NCBI GenBank assembly: GCA_014377915.1
Contig: JACMOT010000143.1
Span: 1-11,766 of the forward strand
Length of the DNA stretch: 11,766 nucleotides
Reading direction: 5' to 3'
Origin: Tardiphaga sp.
Lineage (GTDB): Bacteria; Pseudomonadota; Alphaproteobacteria; Rhizobiales; Xanthobacteraceae
Positions 1 to 11,766 of this stretch are shown here, piece by piece. The notes beneath the pieces were generated by a model, which searched no databases, had not been told where the DNA came from, and saw nothing but the letters and a program-made list of their open reading frames with translations. The position numbers and the translations under genes were made by a program. Every line of letters starts with the position of its first letter. Positions within the stretch are counted from its first letter, which is position 1.

Positions 1-3000
1 ACGTCGCCCGCGATCCCGGGCAGGCTTCCGCCGATATCGTCGTGCTGTCGGCGGCGGACAGCGATCTGGCGTCGTTCCACGCCGCGCATGCGGTGCTGCC
101 GCCGGACTTCCCGAGCCTGCGGCTGACCAACCTGCTGGCGCTCGGTCATCCCGCCTCGGTCGACCTCTATGTCGAGCGCACGTTGGCCAAGGCAAAGATT
201 GTCGTGCTGCGCATGCTGGGCGGCATCGGCTACTGGCCGCATGGTGTCGAGAGCCTGCGCAGTGACGCGCTGCGTAGGGGCGCCATGTTTGTCTGCATTC
301 CCGGCGAGATGTACTGGAACGCCGAACTGGCGGCGCGCGGCACAGCCGATAGCGAAGTCACCCATGCGATGTGGCGCTATTGCAGCGAAGGCGGCATCGA
401 CAATGCCCAACTGGCGCTGCGCCTCGCGGCGTCTTTGATCGGGCATGGCGACGCCCCGCCGGCGGCTCGGCCGATGCCTTCGGCCGGGTTCTGGCCGGCC
501 GAACCGGCGGCAGACGATCGTCCCAACGCTATCGTGATCTGTTACCGCGCGCTGGTCGCCGGAGGCGATACCGCGGCGATCGAGGCGCTTCGCCGCGCCC
601 TCGAGGCGCGCGGCCTCAACGCCGTCTGCATTTACGTCGCCAGCCTGAAGGACGAAGGCTCCGCCGCCTTCCTGCGCGCCGCGCTGGCGGCGCATCCGGC
701 TGATATCATCGTCAACGCCACCGCCTTTGCGACCGCGACCGCGCATGACGATGCCGGCGTGCTGGCGGCGTCGGGGTGCCCGATCCTGCAGGTGGCGCAG
801 GCCGGCACCTCGCGCGCCGCCTGGGACGCCTCGCCCCGCGGCCTGACACCGCGCGATCTGGCGATGCATGTGGTGTTGCCGGAAGTCGACGGTCGGATCT
901 TTGCCAATGCCATCGCCTTCAAGGAACGCGGCGACAGCAGCACCGGTTTTGCTCCGGTCACGTTCCAGCCGGTGCCGGACCGGATCGATGCAACAGCCGA
1001 TCTGGCGCGGGCCTGGGTGCGGCTGCGCCGCGCAGCTGCGCCGCAGCGCCGGGTCGCGCTGGTGCTTGCCAACTATCCGAATCGCGATGGGCGCATAGGT
1101 AATGGCGTCGGCCTCGATACGCCGCAGAGCCTGATCGACGTGCTCGCTTCGATGTGCGGCGCCGGCTATTCCATCGACGACGCACCAGTGGACGCCGCGG
1201 CGATGATGGCGCTGCTGCAGCCGGGGCCAACCAACGCGCTCGATACTCGTGATCGTCATGGTGAGGAGCTCTTGCGACGAAGCAATCCAGTTCTTTCTTC
1301 GCCCGACGGCTCTGGATTGCCGCGTCGCTCCGCTCCTCGCAATGACGTGGAGAGAACCGAGCGTGCCTCTCGCGTCGGCGGAACGACATGGTCACTGCTG
1401 GACTACAAAACCGCTTTTGCAACATTGCCAGACAACGTCCGGCTCGCCGTCGAATCGCGTTGGGGCAGGGCGGAGAGCGATCCTCATGTCGCTGAAGGGG
1501 AATTCCGCCTCGGGCTGCATCGCTTCGGCAATATCGTGGTCGGCGTGCAGCCGGCGCGGGGCTACAATATCGATCCGAAGAGCACCTATCACGATCCCGA
1601 TCTGGTGCCGCCGCATCATTACCTCGCCTTCTATCTCTGGCTGCGGCGTGAATTCGATACGCACGCAATCGTGCATCTCGGCAAGCACGGCAATCTCGAA
1701 TGGCTGCCGGGCAAGAGCGCGGGACTTTCCGCCGACTGCCTGCCCGATGCGGTGCTGGGTCCACTGCCGCATCTCTATCCCTTCATCGTCAACGATCCCG
1801 GCGAGGGCATCCAGGCCAAGCGCCGCGCCGCGGCCGTGATCATCGATCATCTGACGCCGCCGATGACCCGCGCCGAGCTGCATGACGATCTGGCACGGCT
1901 GGAAAACCTGGTCGACGAATATGCGCTGGCTGCCGATCTAGATCCGAAACGCGCGGCCTTGATCGCCGAGGACATCCTGTCGATGGCCCGCGCGCAGCGG
2001 CTTGACGCTGATGTCAACATCACGCGCGATACGCCGGCCAACGACGCGTTGCGCGCGCTCGACGCGCATCTGTGCGATCTCAAGGAAATGCAGATCCGGG
2101 ACGGGTTGCACGTGTTCGGCCGGACGCCAGAAGATGCTCAGCGTAACGATCTGCTGGTCTCGATCGCGCGGTTGCCACGCTCGGAGACGACGCCGCAGGA
2201 CGCGTCGTTGCATCGAGCGATCGCGGCGGATCTGGGCTTGGGCGATTTCGATCCGCTGACGCGCGATCTGGCGCTGGATTACGAGGGGCCGCGGCCAGCA
2301 TTGCTAGCCCATATCAGCGATGCGCTATGGCGCACGACGGGCGATACCGTCGAGCGCATCGAAGCGCTGGCGCTGCGAATGGTCTCGAATGTTTCGGATA
2401 GAGCGTCGTCGTCTTCCCCTCTCCCCTTATGGGAGAGGGGAGGAGAGTGCGCGGTCGCTGATGAAAATTGGCCCGCCACCTCCGCCGTTCTTGCCTGGAT
2501 CTCCATCACCCTGCGTCCCGCTATCGATGCCTGCGGCGCGGCTGAAATGAGTGCCTTTCTCACCGGCCTCGATGGCCATTTCGTCCGTCCCGGTCCCTCC
2601 GGCGCGCCGACGCGTGGGCGGCCCGACGTGCTCCCCACCGGGCGAAATTTCTTCGCCGTCGATGTCCGCGCGGTGCCGACGCCATCGGCTTGGCGGATCG
2701 GGCAGCTCGCCGCGGAGCGGCTGGTTGAAGGCTATTGGCAGGAGGCCGGCGAATGGCCGCGCGCGATCGCGCTATCGGCGTGGGGAACGTCCAACATGCG
2801 CACCGGTGGCGACGATGTCGCGCAGGGGCTGGCCTTGATCGGCGCGCGTCCGCTGTGGGAGGAAACCTCCGGCCGCGTCACCGGCTTCGCCATCATACCG
2901 CTGTCGGAGCTGAAGCGTCCGCGCGTCGATGTCACCTTTCGCGTCTCCGGCCTGTTTCGCGACGCCTTCCCGACCCAGATGGATCTGATCGGCTCCGCGG

Positions 3001-3836
3001 TCGCGGCGATCGCTCTGCTCGACGAGCCCGACGAGGCCAATCCGATTGCCGCGAATGTCCGGGCCAAGGCCATGGCGTTGCAGGCCGCCGGCATGAGCGA
3101 TGAAACCGCGCAGCGTCAGGCCGCGCGTCGGGTGTTCGGCTCGAAGCCGGGCGCCTATGGCGCGGGGCTGCAGGCCTTGATGGATGAAGGCGGCTGGGAC
3201 AAGCGCGCCGATCTCGCTTGCGTCTATCTCGACTGGGGCGGCTATGCCTATGGCAGCGGTGGCGAAGGCGAGGACGCGCGCGGCGACTTCGCCGAGCGGC
3301 TCAAGAGTATCGATCTGGTCGCGCAGGCCCAGGATAATCGGGAGCACGACATTCTCGACTCCGACGACTACTATCAGTTCATCGGTGGTCTCGCCGCGAC
3401 GGTGCAGACGCTGCGCGGCACCGCGCCCCGCATCGCTCATATCGACACCTCGCGGCCGGAGGCGCCGGTGTCGCGGCCGCTGAGCCATGAAATCTCACGC
3501 GTGGTGCGCGGCCGCGCCGCCAATCCGAAATGGATCAGGGGCGTGATGCGTCATGGTTACAAGGGCGCGTTCGAGATCGCCGCCACCGTGGACTATCTGT
3601 TCGGCTTTGCCGCCTCGACCGACGCGGTGTCGAACCACCATTTCGATCAGCTGTTCGCGTCCTATCTCGAAGACGAGGTGGTCCGCGACTTCATGCATGA
3701 TGCCAATCCCGCGGCGCTGCGTGAGACCGCCGCGCGCTTCGCCGAAGCGATCCGGCGGGGATTGTGGACCCCGCGCTCGAACCGCGCCGCCGACCTGATC
3801 GCCGAACTGCTGCCGACAAGCAAGGAAATCGCATGA
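1..3836 (+). CDS. cobN: CobN, large subunit of the ATP-dependent aerobic cobaltochelatase (5' partial)
   Basis: This subunit inserts Co2+ into hydrogenobyrinic acid a,c-diamide, working with CobS and CobT in the cytoplasm. The reading frame is open from base 3, giving 1277 visible residues. The true start lies upstream, because the visible N-terminus (ADIVVLSAADSDLASF) matches a CobN segment slightly inside the family start, so probably fewer than 20 residues are missing. Family signatures, numbered from base 3, are HLGKHGNLEWLPGK at 558-571, DVLPTGRNFFAVD at 875-887 and the C-terminal segment VMRHGYKGAFE. The protein is oddly interrupted by two repeat-derived segments (about residues 418-449 and 804-814), both in frame, so the gene looks intact and probably functional. 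The TGA stop overlaps the cobO start (ATGA), indicating an operon with translational coupling. Identity is near certain; activity with the insertions is inferred. Confidence 0.97.
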   Translation, partial: VARDPGQASADIVVLSAADSDLASFHAAHAVLPPDFPSLRLTNLLALGHPASVDLYVERTLAKAKIVVLRMLGGIGYWPHGVESLRSDALRRGAMFVCIPGEMYWNAELAARGTADSEVTHAMWRYCSEGGIDNAQLALRLAASLIGHGDAPPAARPMPSAGFWPAEPAADDRPNAIVICYRALVAGGDTAAIEALRRALEARGLNAVCIYVASLKDEGSAAFLRAALAAHPADIIVNATAFATATAHDDAGVLAASGCPILQVAQAGTSRAAWDASPRGLTPRDLAMHVVLPEVDGRIFANAIAFKERGDSSTGFAPVTFQPVPDRIDATADLARAWVRLRRAAAPQRRVALVLANYPNRDGRIGNGVGLDTPQSLIDVLASMCGAGYSIDDAPVDAAAMMALLQPGPTNALDTRDRHGEELLRRSNPVLSSPDGSGLPRRSAPRNDVERTERASRVGGTTWSLLDYKTAFATLPDNVRLAVESRWGRAESDPHVAEGEFRLGLHRFGNIVVGVQPARGYNIDPKSTYHDPDLVPPHHYLAFYLWLRREFDTHAIVHLGKHGNLEWLPGKSAGLSADCLPDAVLGPLPHLYPFIVNDPGEGIQAKRRAAAVIIDHLTPPMTRAELHDDLARLENLVDEYALAADLDPKRAALIAEDILSMARAQRLDADVNITRDTPANDALRALDAHLCDLKEMQIRDGLHVFGRTPEDAQRNDLLVSIARLPRSETTPQDASLHRAIAADLGLGDFDPLTRDLALDYEGPRPALLAHISDALWRTTGDTVERIEALALRMVSNVSDRASSSSPLPLWERGGECAVADENWPATSAVLAWISITLRPAIDACGAAEMSAFLTGLDGHFVRPGPSGAPTRGRPDVLPTGRNFFAVDVRAVPTPSAWRIGQLAAERLVEGYWQEAGEWPRAIALSAWGTSNMRTGGDDVAQGLALIGARPLWEETSGRVTGFAIIPLSELKRPRVDVTFRVSGLFRDAFPTQMDLIGSAVAAIALLDEPDEANPIAANVRAKAMALQAAGMSDETAQRQAARRVFGSKPGAYGAGLQALMDEGGWDKRADLACVYLDWGGYAYGSGGEGEDARGDFAERLKSIDLVAQAQDNREHDILDSDDYYQFIGGLAATVQTLRGTAPRIAHIDTSRPEAPVSRPLSHEISRVVRGRAANPKWIRGVMRHGYKGAFEIAATVDYLFGFAASTDAVSNHHFDQLFASYLEDEVVRDFMHDANPAALRETAARFAEAIRRGLWTPRSNRAADLIAELLPTSKEIA
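1254..1347 (+). repeat. Long imperfect palindromic repeat inserted in frame in cobN
   Basis: A left arm of 37 bases (1254-1290) and a right arm of 36 bases (1312-1347) are inverted copies pairing at 29 of 36 positions with one bulged base, around a 21-base loop. The right arm read in reverse starts CGTCATTGCGAGGAGC and ends GCAATCCAG, a sequence I recognise as a dispersed repeat in Bradyrhizobium, Rhodopseudomonas and other genomes. Its reverse-strand translation contains RHCEERSDAAIQ, a familiar artefact of spurious ORFs. It encodes an Arg/Ser-rich stretch (RHGEELLRRSNP...PRRSAPRND) between PTNALDTR and GGTTWSLLDYK, where CobN proteins usually have only a short variable linker. The palindrome is 94 bases, not a multiple of three, so flanking bases up to about 1380 probably belong to the insertion. 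No target-site duplication is visible. Confidence 0.85.
2412..2444 (+). repeat. Short palindromic repeat (CCCTCTCCC...GGGAGAGGG family) inserted in frame in cobN
   Basis: A perfect 10-base inverted repeat, CCCCTCTCCC at 2416-2425 and GGGAGAGGGG at 2431-2440, flanks a 5-base loop (CTTAT). The pairing extends to 14 bases with one G-U-type mismatch. Its translation SPLPLWERGG, and LPLSPYGRGE and PPLSHKGRGE in other frames, are well-known signatures of a dispersed hairpin repeat in Bradyrhizobium-like and some other proteobacterial genomes. In cobN it lies between NVSDRA and WPATSAV, adding roughly 10-24 residues. The palindrome itself has no stop codon in any of the three plus-strand frames. The exact insertion ends cannot be fixed without an uninterrupted relative. 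Confidence 0.75.
3822..3826 (+). promoter_or_regulatory. Ribosome binding site of cobO
   Basis: AAGGA lies 6 bases before the ATG at 3833, inside the last codons of cobN. It supports the ATG that overlaps the cobN stop as the cobO start, rather than an earlier in-frame position inside cobN. Confidence 0.7.
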
Positions 3837-6885: not shown

Positions 6886-7770
6886 TCAGCGCTCCACGCG
6901 TTCGAGTTCGGCTGCCAGCCGGTCGAGCGCCTCGGCCAGCATCGGGCCGCCGCAGTTCATTAGCCGTTCCGGGATCACGAGCCGCTTCGAGGGTGGATAG
7001 AAGCCCTGCAGCGCCGGATGCAGCAGGAAGGCGCGACCCTCATCCTCGGCAAAATTGTCGCCTTCCGACAGCAACAGAAAATCCGGTTTTGCCGCAACAA
7101 TTACTTCCAGCGACGCAAAGCCGCCGCCGCGCAGGCCGAGATCCTTTGCCGCGCTATTCAGTCCGACGGCCGCCAGCAGCGCACCGGTCAGGCTGTCGCT
7201 GCCGGACACCCAGCCGCGCCGCGACAGCGCCAGCACGCGATAGGCTTTTTTCGCCGCGACGGCGCGGGCGCGTGCAATCGCGGCATCGAGTTTGGCGATC
7301 TCGGCGATGGCGCGGTCGGGGTGCTTCACGACGTCGCCCATCCGCAGTATCTGCTTCCTGACGTCCTCCATCGAGCGCGGCACATCGAATTCGGTGACGT
7401 TGAGGCCCTTGTCCTTCAGCAGTTCGCGGGTTGCGCGCTTGGTGTAGCGGCCGGCGACGACGATATCGGGCTTCAGCATCAGCACGTCTTCGGCCTCGCC
7501 GGAAAGCCGAGGAAATTGAGCAGCCCGGGCGGCATCCCAGGAACGTGTCTTATCCCGGGAATAGGGGCTGAGCCCCAAAATCTGCTCGGGATCGGCGAGC
7601 GTCATCAGTAACTGGTCGGTGCATAGATTGATCGAGGCGATGCGCGGCAGATCGGCGGCGAAGATTGGCGTTGCCAACGTCAGACCGAGCGTGGCGATCA
7701 ACGCGATGAAGGTTGCTCGCACCCCCTCGCGCTGGCTGCGGGATGATGGCATGAAGCGGACATGAAACAT
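6886..7770 (-). CDS. BtuF-type periplasmic substrate-binding protein of a corrinoid/metal-chelate ABC transporter
   Basis: This is a helical-backbone periplasmic binding protein that would capture a corrinoid (or iron chelate) in the periplasm and deliver it to a FecCD/BtuC permease. With the ATG at 7770 it has 294 residues. The N-terminus has a basic region, a hydrophobic core (about residues 19-34) and a likely signal peptidase site after IFA (residue 38). The mature start PRIASINLCTDQLL and the C-terminal RLMNCGGPMLAEALDRLA match PF01497-type proteins found in cob clusters. A second ATG at 7752 (288 residues) is also possible; neither has a strong ribosome binding site. The frame stays open upstream to 8763, but that part is antisense to cobC and was excluded. 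Stop and cobD start are one base apart. B12 as substrate is inferred from context. Confidence 0.9.
   Translation of the reverse strand: MFHVRFMPSSRSQREGVRATFIALIATLGLTLATPIFAADLPRIASINLCTDQLLMTLADPEQILGLSPYSRDKTRSWDAARAAQFPRLSGEAEDVLMLKPDIVVAGRYTKRATRELLKDKGLNVTEFDVPRSMEDVRKQILRMGDVVKHPDRAIAEIAKLDAAIARARAVAAKKAYRVLALSRRGWVSGSDSLTGALLAAVGLNSAAKDLGLRGGGFASLEVIVAAKPDFLLLSEGDNFAEDEGRAFLLHPALQGFYPPSKRLVIPERLMNCGGPMLAEALDRLAAELERVER
6892..6896 (-). promoter_or_regulatory. Ribosome binding site of cobD
   Basis: On the minus strand TGGAG ends seven bases before the GTG at 6884-6882, within the last codons of the upstream binding-protein gene. It supports the GTG start and translational coupling of the two genes. 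Confidence 0.65.
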
Positions 7771-8754
7771 GGCGGCGATCTCAGCGAGGCGATGGCGCAT
7801 TCTGGCGGCGATGCCGCGGCGTGGCTCGATCTGTCGACCGGGATCAATCCCTGGTCGTGGCCGAGCAGCGGAGTATGGCCTGATGCCGTCTGGCAGCGGC
7901 TGCCGTCTCGTGCGGATGAAGCGGCGCTGCTGGGTGCGGCGCGGGCCGCCTATCGCGTACCCGCTGGCACCGACCTTGTCGCGGCCGGGGGCACCCAGGC
8001 GCTGATCCAGTTTCTGCCCTATCTCGCAGCGCCCGGACCGGTGGCTATCGTCGGGCCGACCTACCATGAGCACGCCGCGGCCTGGCGCGACGCCGGGCAC
8101 CAAGTGATCATGATCGACGATTTCGCCGCGTTGCCCGGCAACGTCATTCACGCCGTCATCGTCAATCCCAACAATCCTGACGGGCGTATCGCCGGTCACG
8201 CCGCGCTCGCCGAGGTCGCCGCGGAACTGCGGCGGCGCGGCGGCTGGCTGGTGATCGACGAGGCCTTTGCCGATGTCGATCCGGCGAGCAGCGCGGTGGC
8301 GCTGTGCGAGGCAGGGCCGATCGTGATCCTGCGCTCGTTCGGGAAGTTCTATGGGCTGGCCGGATTGCGGCTCGGCTTTGCGATTGCCGAGCCGGCCATC
8401 GCGCAGCGCATTGCTGCCGCGCTCGGCCCGTGGGCGGTCTCCGGTCCCGCGCTGCGGATCGGCGCCGATGCGCTGGGCAATGAGGCATGGAGCGAACGCA
8501 TGCGCGCGGCGCTGACGCGCCAGGCGCAGCGGCTCGACGCGGTGCTGACAGAGGCCGGTTTCGAGATTGTCGGCGGCACCTCGCTGTTCCGGCTGGCGCG
8601 GCATCGTGAGGCTTTGAAGCTTCATGCTGCTCTGGCGCGACAGCAGATCTGGTGCCGAAGGTTCGATTATGCCGAGGACTGGCTGCGCTTTGGCTTGCCG
8701 CCAGATGATGCCGCATTGGAGCGGCTCGCTGCCGCACTGAAATCCATCGTTTAA
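7762..8754 (+). CDS. cobC: Threonine-phosphate decarboxylase CobC (PLP-dependent aminotransferase family)
   Basis: CobC decarboxylates L-threonine O-3-phosphate to (R)-1-amino-2-propanol phosphate, the linker that CobD attaches to cobyric acid. The 330 residues show the class I/II aminotransferase fold. The N-terminal WLDLSTGINP is typical of CobC, followed by VNPNNPDGR (Asn135 onward), the PLP-contacting Asp166 in VIDEAF, the Schiff-base lysine Lys195 in RSFGKFYGLAG and Arg203 in LRLGF. The ATG at 7762 gives the conserved MKHGGDLSEA start; the upstream purines (GAAGCGG) are a weak ribosome site. It is the only plus-strand gene between two leftward units, with its 5' end overlapping the binding-protein gene and its stop 12 bases from that of the ATPase. 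Naming caution: Salmonella calls this enzyme CobD, and its CobC is a phosphatase. Confidence 0.95.
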   Translation: MKHGGDLSEAMAHSGGDAAAWLDLSTGINPWSWPSSGVWPDAVWQRLPSRADEAALLGAARAAYRVPAGTDLVAAGGTQALIQFLPYLAAPGPVAIVGPTYHEHAAAWRDAGHQVIMIDDFAALPGNVIHAVIVNPNNPDGRIAGHAALAEVAAELRRRGGWLVIDEAFADVDPASSAVALCEAGPIVILRSFGKFYGLAGLRLGFAIAEPAIAQRIAAALGPWAVSGPALRIGADALGNEAWSERMRAALTRQAQRLDAVLTEAGFEIVGGTSLFRLARHREALKLHAALARQQIWCRRFDYAEDWLRFGLPPDDAALERLAAALKSIV

Positions 8755-8766
8755 GGGCGGCATCGC

Positions 8767-9545
<779 letters not shown>

Positions 9546-9549
<4 letters not shown>

Positions 9550-10574
9550 GCGATGCCTCCGCCGAGCGCGCGGCGCTCGCGCACGATCAAATAGAGAAAG
9601 AACGGCACGCCGATGATCGAGGTCAGCACGCCGACCTTGATATCGGTGGTGGAGGGAATGATCCGCACCGCGATGTCGGCGGCGAGCAGCAGCGCCGATC
9701 CGGTTAGCGCGCTCGGGATCAGCAGACGACCGGGATCGTGCCCGATCAGCGGCCGCATCAGATGCGGCGCGATCAGGCCGATGAAGCCGATGGTGCCGGT
9801 GACAGCGACCGCGCCGCCGACGCCGAGCGCGACGCCGATGATCACCAGCAGCCGCAGTCGGCCGACATCGACGCCGAGGCTCTGCGCGGTTTCCTCGCCA
9901 AGGCTGAGTGCACGAAACGCTGAGCGCTGGCTCATCAGCAGGATCGCGCCGGCGACGATGAAGGGCAATGCGAGCTGCACATGGCGAAAGCTGCGGTCCT
10001 CCAGCGAGCCGAGTAGCCAGAACGCGATCTCCAGCGCGGCGAACGGATTGGCCGACAGGTTCATCACCAGCGCCGTCGCCGCGCCCGCGAGGCTGGAAAT
10101 CGCCAGTCCCGCGAGAATCAGCAGCAACAGTCCGGCACTGCGGCCAGCAATGCTGAGCAACACAAAGACCGAGACGAAAGCCATGGTAATGCCGGCCACT
10201 GGCAGCGCCCAGGAGCGCACATCCGCCCAGCCCAGCGAGATCATCAGCACGGCGCCGAACGCCGCGGATTGCGGCGCTCCAAACAAAGACGGCGAGGCGA
10301 GGGGATTGCGCAGCAATCCCTGCAGGGCCGCGCCGGAAAGTCCCAGAATCGCACCGATGGCGAGGCCGAGAATGGCGCGGGGCAGGCGGATTTCGCGCAC
10401 GATGGTCTGCTGAACGTCGCTGCCACCGCCGAACAGCGCGTCGAGTACGGTGAGTGGCGAGAGTTTCACCGGGCCAGTTCCGAGCGAGCCCAGCGCCAGC
10501 AGCGTCACCAGCACGGCGAGCGTGGCCGTGGTCACGACGAGTGGCCGCCGCGTCGAGGGTGCCAGTTTCACCAT
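9546..10574 (-). CDS. ABC transporter permease, FecCD/BtuC family
   Basis: This inner-membrane permease would form the translocation channel for a corrinoid or similar metal chelate. The 342 residues contain about ten hydrophobic segments, as expected for BtuC/FecCD. Family motifs are RLPRAILGL at 63-71 with GAALQGLLRNPLASP at 81-95, the loop LSLGEETAQSLGV at 223-235 that would contact the ATPase, and IGFIGLIAPHLMR at 262-274. The ATG at 10574 overlaps the last codons of the receptor gene by 7 bases and has no clear ribosome site, so coupling to the receptor gene is likely. Its TGA overlaps the ATPase start. Only one permease gene is present, consistent with a homodimer. Confidence 0.95.
9556..9560 (-). 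promoter_or_regulatory. Ribosome binding site of the ABC ATPase gene
   Basis: A perfect GGAGG on the minus strand lies six bases before the ATG at 9549, inside the last codons of the permease gene. It settles the ATPase start within a much longer open frame. Confidence 0.75.
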
Positions 10575-11766
10575 GTGGCGTTGACGCCGGCATAGGCCGC
10601 CGGTCCGGTAGTTCCGAAATTCAGGACTTCCTGATAGTGCGCGTTCAAGATGTTCTCACCGCGGGCAAAGACCTTCCAGTTGGCGTCGAGTCTGTATTCG
10701 CTATAGAGGTCGACGCGGGTATAGGCATCGACCTGGCCAACCTGGTTGGCGCTGCTGTAGCGTTTTGACACCGTGGTGACGCGGGGCTCGATCGTCCATT
10801 TGTCCGTCGGCGTGATGGTGAGCGCGAAACGTGCGAGGTTCTTCGGACGCCGCGCCAGGATCGCGCCGTTCGACAGGTCGATGGCGTGCAGATAGGTGTA
10901 GGCCATGTTGAGTTTCACCAGACCCGGCAAAATGTCGACGTCACCGCCGAGTTCGAGACCGCTGGTCTCGGCGCGGGCGACGTTGATGTAGCAGCCGATA
11001 GTCTGGGTCGCGAGACAGGGATTTCCGACGGCGGTCGGCGATACGAAGTTGATCAAATTGCTGTAGTCGGTGACAAATCCGGTCAAGGAAATAATGACGC
11101 GGCCGTTGAACAGCGACTGGTCTATGCGGGCGTCGTAGCCGAAATTGGTTTCGGAAACCAGCGACGCCGTGCCGTTGTCCGGCGAATATAATTGAAACAG
11201 CGTCGGCGCCTTGGCGCCGGTGCCGACACTGGCGCGCAGCTTGGTGGCGGTTTCGAAAATATTGTAGGCCGCCGTGCTGCGCCAGGTCTCGAAACGCCCC
11301 GAATTGTCGAGATTGCGCGGGCGATCGCCGGCGGTCGCCACATCGTCGACGCGGCCACCCATGGTGATGTTGAGGCGCTCCCCGATCGGCAGCGACCACA
11401 GCGCAAATAGCGAGTTGGTTTCCTGTGCGGCGGCCACCACCGGTGTCAGCAGGCCGCGCAGCGGCTGGATGGCCGTCGTGTAGGTCTGCGCGGTCTCTCG
11501 CTGGGTACGGGCGCCATATACCAGTGATCCGAGTGGCCCCAGTTTCAGCGTCGCCTGATATTCGGCGCCGACGCTGTCACCGATATAGTCAGAGATCGTG
11601 GAGGTCGTGTTCCGCGGCAGCGTGTTGGTCTTGTAGGAGACGTCGTTGAATGAACGCTCGACATGGGTATCGAACACGTTGACGCTGTGCGTGAGGATGC
11701 CGTCGAGCGTATCGACGGTGGCGCGGGCCCAGACCTGCCGCAGCCGCTTGGTCGATGCTGACGGCG
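10568..11766 (-). CDS. btuB: TonB-dependent outer-membrane receptor, BtuB type (N-terminus beyond the window)
   Basis: The visible 398 residues are the C-terminal part of a TonB-dependent beta-barrel that would import cobalamin or another corrinoid across the outer membrane. The frame is open to the window edge, so the signal peptide, TonB box and plug domain are not seen; an apparent GTG start at 11677 is internal. Barrel signatures include GTGAKAPTLFQLYSP, ETSGLELGGDVDI, YTRVDLYSEYRLD and the C-terminal ARGENILNAHYQEVLNFGTTGPAAYAGVNATW segment (in parts), ending in an aromatic residue as outer-membrane barrels do. A Cys pair (visible residues 250 and 258) probably lies in a surface loop. 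The stop overlaps the permease start, placing it first in the uptake unit. Corrinoid specificity is inferred from family resemblance and the cob neighbours; a siderophore receptor is the alternative. Confidence 0.9.
   Translation of the reverse strand, partial: PSASTKRLRQVWARATVDTLDGILTHSVNVFDTHVERSFNDVSYKTNTLPRNTTSTISDYIGDSVGAEYQATLKLGPLGSLVYGARTQRETAQTYTTAIQPLRGLLTPVVAAAQETNSLFALWSLPIGERLNITMGGRVDDVATAGDRPRNLDNSGRFETWRSTAAYNIFETATKLRASVGTGAKAPTLFQLYSPDNGTASLVSETNFGYDARIDQSLFNGRVIISLTGFVTDYSNLINFVSPTAVGNPCLATQTIGCYINVARAETSGLELGGDVDILPGLVKLNMAYTYLHAIDLSNGAILARRPKNLARFALTITPTDKWTIEPRVTTVSKRYSSANQVGQVDAYTRVDLYSEYRLDANWKVFARGENILNAHYQEVLNFGTTGPAAYAGVNATW

Follow-up and report, generated by a model that had tools for sequence, protein, structure and literature searches.

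CGTC-tagged palindromic repeats within CobN of a Tardiphaga relative: an in-frame insertion and its probable recurrence in the same linker

The stretch of DNA analysed here, which we refer to as the window (11,766 nucleotides in all), carries cobalamin genes, the first of which, cobN, lacks only its 5′ end. A 94-bp palindrome (window positions 1254-1347) lies within the intact cobN frame. This raises the questions of where such a palindrome came from, how it can be accommodated in a conserved metabolic enzyme, and whether the same linker has been entered more than once. The features on which the argument depends are the following.

3-3836, plus strand: cobN, cobaltochelatase subunit CobN (NCBIfam TIGR02257, 1472 bits; Pfam PF02514); the 5′ end lies outside the window.
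1242-1358, plus strand: site 1, the inserted segment, CobN residues 414-452 (DTRD...VERT, 39 residues), from the alignment with 120 homologues and absent in empty relatives.
1254-1290, plus strand: left REP arm, 37 nt, with outer CGTC tag and inner AATCCAG; it shares 35/37 positions with an arm found in genomic copies such as L082.
1291-1311, no strand assigned: spacer between the arms, 21 nt.
1312-1347, minus strand: right REP arm, 36 nt, with its outer CGTC tag on the minus strand; it shares 35/36 positions with an arm found in genomic copies such as L085.
2382-2468, plus strand: site 2, a variable linker spanning CobN residues 794-822, with a net gain of 19 residues over empty relatives.
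2412-2444, no strand assigned: a 33-nt hairpin, probably left over from a second palindromic repeat (read as SPLPLWER), from self-alignment, folding and longer relatives at the same place.

The cobN frame runs uninterrupted across the palindrome, two stretches of the protein match the NCBIfam cobalto_cobN model, the Pfam CobN-Mg_chel profile is covered almost completely, and outside the insert the protein is 96% identical to its homologue P0001; together, the open frame, the family-model matches and this identity rule out a broken gene. Among named organisms, the best match to the CobN locus is Tardiphaga robiniae (81% over the best segment), with genomes of the genus group reaching 89%; the host is accordingly Tardiphaga-like. 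Further along the window (6886-11766), genes for a periplasmic binding protein, an ABC ATPase, a BtuC-like permease and a TonB-dependent receptor, the last of which runs past the window end, adjoin the B12 synthesis genes, and they look like an uptake set.

In line with the preliminary description, the palindrome consists of arms of 37 and 36 bases around a 21-base loop. The arms match one another at 29 of 37 aligned positions, and the differences between them follow the same pattern as those between the two arms of a genomic copy. The folding energy of the 94 nt as RNA is -53.7 kcal/mol, whereas shuffled versions average -28.7 (z -8.3; 0 of 200 shuffles equal), and this folding, together with the copies found elsewhere, rules out a chance palindrome. 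A known structured RNA was likewise rejected, with no Rfam match at the gathering score. The element is open in four of six frames (offsets 0 and 1 on both strands), as had been claimed for its own frame, plus frame 1 and at least one minus frame, and because two of three frames per strand are open it can be read through. Among 41 full dimers from two relatives, at least four frames are open in 28, three in 10 and two in 3.

By its sequence, the window element is a head-to-head pair (heterodimer) of CGTC-tagged REPs, a class defined by Di Nocera et al. 2013 (PMC3733652) and reported there, in the sections available, from Bradyrhizobium and Rhodopseudomonas. The CGTC tetranucleotide stands at both outer ends, and AATCCAG ends both arms, giving a CCA tail at the inner end of each unit, so that both arms read CGTC-AT...AT-CCA with AT complementarity as the first two stem residues. 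According to the same sections, the CGTC-REP unit has an 8-9 bp stem and a 4-5 nt loop, head-to-head dimers predominate, and heterodimers occur in some families. The window's single arms fold weakly and differently from this (-6.3 and -6.9 kcal/mol) and pair mutually. They are of two types, with the tags outside; by rough arm-type labels, 27 of the 41 full genomic dimers also clearly combine two types, while one arm is unclassified in 13 and both arms are alike in 1. A GTAG REP mobilised by a RAYT is ruled out by the CGTC tags, as is a Rickettsia palindromic element (RPE) proper, since the insertion is in frame but the nearest CobN comes from Tardiphaga. No transposase was found among the nine window proteins scanned; CGTC REPs themselves seem to have no dedicated transposase according to the part of PMC3733652 consulted, which leaves their mode of movement open. 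A second paper, PMC5082802, describes two other Bradyrhizobium REPs, and the string HCEE occurs nowhere in the portion of its text that was available.

The site-1 repeat is dispersed and mostly intergenic, with dozens of copies in Tardiphaga relatives. T. robiniae (G001) and a second relative (G008) each gave 68 DNA matches, a count that includes both strands of a palindrome; of 65 and 95 first-look candidates, 40 were scored in each case. The genomic copies read HCEERSDAAIQ in one frame, and their close identity to the window's arms bears out the earlier attribution of these arms to a normally intergenic repeat with that reading. We then compared copies inside and between genes, a check proposed at the outset, by counting in the relatives rather than in the window's own genome, and by asking whether each element is flanked on both sides by coding-like sequence that shares one open frame. 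The 73 copies tested are made up of 40 from G008, one for each distinct scored place, and 33 of the 34 places among the matches listed for G001. At a strict cut (0.18) none of the 73 was intragenic, but some control flanks also fell below this cut; longer flanks and a lower cut were then used, with which both flanks exceeded 0 in 7 of 7 known intragenic controls (lowest value 0.13). Three copies (L087, L121 and L146) had both flanks above 0 in this longer-flank test: the weaker flank of L121 and L146 reached only 0.01-0.02, and L087, with flanks of 0.25 and 0.23, lies in a frame that opens just 39 nt before the element. Six further copies sit 33-111 nt inside a coding-like stop-to-stop frame, at its upstream end. 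We read these edge-case copies as probably lying ahead of the true start codon, and the number of clearly intragenic copies in the two relatives is 0 of 73.

For the 66 between-gene copies with both neighbours called in the two relatives, the neighbours are convergent in 26 cases, co-directional in 40 and divergent in none; divergent neighbours are found for one of the six edge cases. By eye, CTCTCC is frequent directly outside the CGTC tag of genomic copies (loci L082, L085, L087, L121-L150 and L168-L207). No clear target-site duplication was seen in the flanks of the window element, of 14 empty relatives or of the genomic copies. A protein search for large proteins with the insert of homologue P0078 as query returned P0078 and one PBP1C (P0121) with the repeat at its N terminus, where the REP peptide perhaps lies upstream of the true start owing to start-site misannotation; the same search with the window insert as query gave no match.

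Alignment with the homologues located the insertion in a linker that follows PTNAL and is 7 residues long when empty. The 39 residues DTRD...VERT replace one residue of empty relatives (net +38), which agrees with the gap of 30-43 residues after PTNALDTR that had been predicted. An insert is also present there in 3 of 120 homologues (P0001, P0002 and P0078), whereas the other 117, including the close relatives P0004 and P0007, are without one; the ranking that gave these best 120 of 7993 used a region including the insert, so that carriers are over-sampled among them. In a wider draw from the family, 43 of 391 genomes match a CobN piece carrying the P0078 insert, and no aligned insert was found, as all 44 matches start at query residue 46-51, the insert end. 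Of the 30 loci fetched from this draw, 28 were readable, all with the empty linker length (L228 after an early pattern match was allowed for), and 2 were unreadable; of the remaining matches, those not read elsewhere in the analysis were judged by match start alone, and an insert in another frame would not align. On these sequences the site-1 insert is rare, and the open frame, with the linker unoccupied in almost every relative compared, upholds the suggestion of a frame-preserving entry into a tolerant part of CobN.

Furthermore, the carriers are not grouped in the gene tree. REP dimers occupy the site-1 linker in three separated lineages, one of them in the opposite orientation, and the four carriers need 3 changes both on a 62-row tree and on a 30-row whole-gene tree built without the insert columns. 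An unlikely alternative is that a single ancestral insertion was followed by clean losses in most lineages or passed on through local gene exchange, and that the palindrome was turned round on the way to P0002. The window, P0001 and P0002 do share the net +38 length and the flanks NALD and RVGG, and as one clade they are not rejected on 260 columns around the linker (AU p 0.145); because of these shared features and this local tree, exchange of the region together with inversion of the element is conceivable. Against a single event, with the whole gene the same grouping is rejected (AU p 1.1e-5), and a single clade of all four carriers gives p 0.02 in the local test. In addition, local trees pair P0002 with its nearest row, P0024, which is 92% identical and empty at site 1 (support 81/84 and 91/89, neither at the starred level). 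The insert peptides of the window and P0001 best match genomic dimers one way round and that of P0002 the other way, and a clean loss back to the identical 7-residue linker would be required several times. From these comparisons we take two origins (P0078 versus the rest) as firm and a third as likely, which would mean that CGTC-REP dimers entered the site-1 linker in no fewer than two lineages and probably in three.

A second linker of the same cobN suggests that site 1 is not alone in receiving repeats. Runs of at least 8 columns filled in fewer than 10% of rows occur in three places only: site 1, the surroundings of residues 794-822 and the N terminus. Within the second of these, the window's 33-nt hairpin (folding z -4.0, matched by 1 of 200 shuffles) is probably the remnant of a repeat of a second kind. 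Among the 113 rows longer than 1000 residues (window included), site 2 is empty in 95, of PLPLWER type in 13 and occupied by a CGTC...GAAA-type palindrome in 5, the types being sorted by pattern and some being short remnants. The three states require 7 changes on the 62-row tree, but filled versus empty only 3, so the site may often be refilled or switched in type rather than filled from empty. The DNA of relatives shows long hairpins at site 2. A 116-base query from one site-2 repeat gave 103 and 119 matches in two genomes and a 137-base query from the other gave 79, 80 and 23 in three, counts that include both strands and single arms; both repeats are dispersed. With the window's own remnant as query, 2 partial matches were found in one of two relatives, and a full-length relative was used instead. 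The 137-bp palindromic repeat (SPLPLWERV reading; L164, G008 and G013) is abundant, with 197 first-look candidates in G008, of which 40 were scored. The two site-2 repeats are unrelated to each other and to the site-1 REP. The second, unrelated insert and the recurrence at site 1 both go beyond the preliminary description.

Recurrence at one linker could also reflect targeting. It is improbable that independent CGTC-REP dimers arrived three times, in one or the other orientation, at the same few codons because these form a true insertion target recognised by a mobiliser, and slightly more doubtful still that a CGTC-REP mobiliser prefers site-1 DNA, recurrence then arising by targeting rather than by tolerance alone. 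In favour of a target, the insert has the same residue position in the window/P0001 and in P0002 and a position two codons off in P0078, all 28 readable family loci agree in the length of the empty linker, and small changes at site 1 are few among the 120 homologues (P0086 and P0116); however, the second linker was struck by other repeats, the flanks of genomic copies have no common target by eye beyond the frequent CTCTCC beside the tag, and carriers are rare.

What the insertions would do to the protein was assessed with a structure model of residues 201-1277 (44 sequences, mean pLDDT 75), which has the fold of solved CobN and ChlH; the best solved relative by sequence is CobN 9uk9. Thirteen stretches have pLDDT below 50, and the two longest, CobN 411-455 and 799-820, overlap the inserts 414-452 and 794-822, both of which are accordingly predicted to be disordered, although gappy columns may lower pLDDT at the inserts and the eleven other, shorter stretches also fall below 50. 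Between the window and P0001, 29 of 39 insert residues are identical, compared with 1191 of 1238 elsewhere, 33 of 40 immediately before the insert and 30 of 40 immediately after it. As the flanks vary almost as much as the insert, the whole site-1 linker region appears to be under weak constraint, and the insert seems to lie in a fast-changing stretch without changing faster than its surroundings. Despite the very stable hairpin, co-option of the inserted peptide or of the mRNA hairpin, for example as a pause in CobN translation, is very improbable, given the low conservation of the insert, although neighbouring stretches vary as well, and the close relatives P0004 and P0007 that manage without it.

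Taken together, we favour, with a probability of roughly 0.8, the reading that a CGTC-REP heterodimer inserted in frame after PTNAL as a neutral selfish passenger, in a protein whose linkers took up repeats recurrently. The 94-bp head-to-head heterodimer would have entered the linker in recent Tardiphaga-like ancestry, as a presumably mobile element, and the second linker would have taken up two other palindromic repeats. Such selfish repeats would persist in CobN because two linkers tolerate extra residues, which, following the model, may hang out as a disordered loop and leave the chelatase unharmed, so that repeat-bearing CobN would retain its function.

The preliminary description regarded a protein-invading use of this repeat family as little described. 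This needs correction: intragenic CGTC-REP units, in frame, were already described in 2013 in the available sections of PMC3733652, although CobN is not among the cases named in that text, and no title on this case was found among the papers listed for palindromic insertions in cobN, for in-gene REPs or for recurrent insertion (subscription journals being mostly outside their scope). The kind is thus known, and what would be new is that several families of palindromic repeats have invaded the same CobN linkers more than once. If this is correct, small palindromic repeats add new peptide segments to a conserved enzyme of metabolism in bacteria other than Rickettsia, repeatedly at one linker, and CobN of this clade offers a natural series (empty, filled, flipped and decayed) for studying junctions and CGTC-REP movement. 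Were site 1 a true target, it would provide a defined site for finding the missing enzyme of the CGTC-REP superfamily. For annotators, part of the length variation of CobN is a warning in itself, as it would be repeat DNA.

The element resembles the CGTC REPs, as far as the consulted part of PMC3733652 describes them, in its outer CGTC, inner CCA, spaced head-to-head heterodimeric arrangement and alphaproteobacterial host, and in that copies lie mostly between convergent or co-directional genes while intragenic units exist; it may differ in the fold of its units, as the 8-9 bp stem and 4-5 nt loop were not recovered for its 36-37 nt arms. The likeness to Rickettsia palindromic elements suggested earlier gains from the same source, which in those sections equates RPE-4 and RPE-6 with CGTC-4 and CGTC-1 elements. 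Like RPE-4 and RPE-6, palindromes in frame inside protein genes, the window element may be said by analogy to work as an RPE does without being one; its host belongs to another bacterial group, and the likeness is taken from published description. More distantly, enterobacterial RU elements in genes (PMC2759123) are small mobile sequences that overlap coding sequence, and palindromic sequences overlap coding sequence in Nematomorpha mitochondria (PMC6649704), although in both, as far as the available text goes, element, host and size are different. Finally, the REPs in recB of two Xanthomonas species, which occupy one sentence in the accessible text of PMC3733652, are similar in involving about one site in one gene of more than one species, whereas for cobN the origins were tested here on trees.
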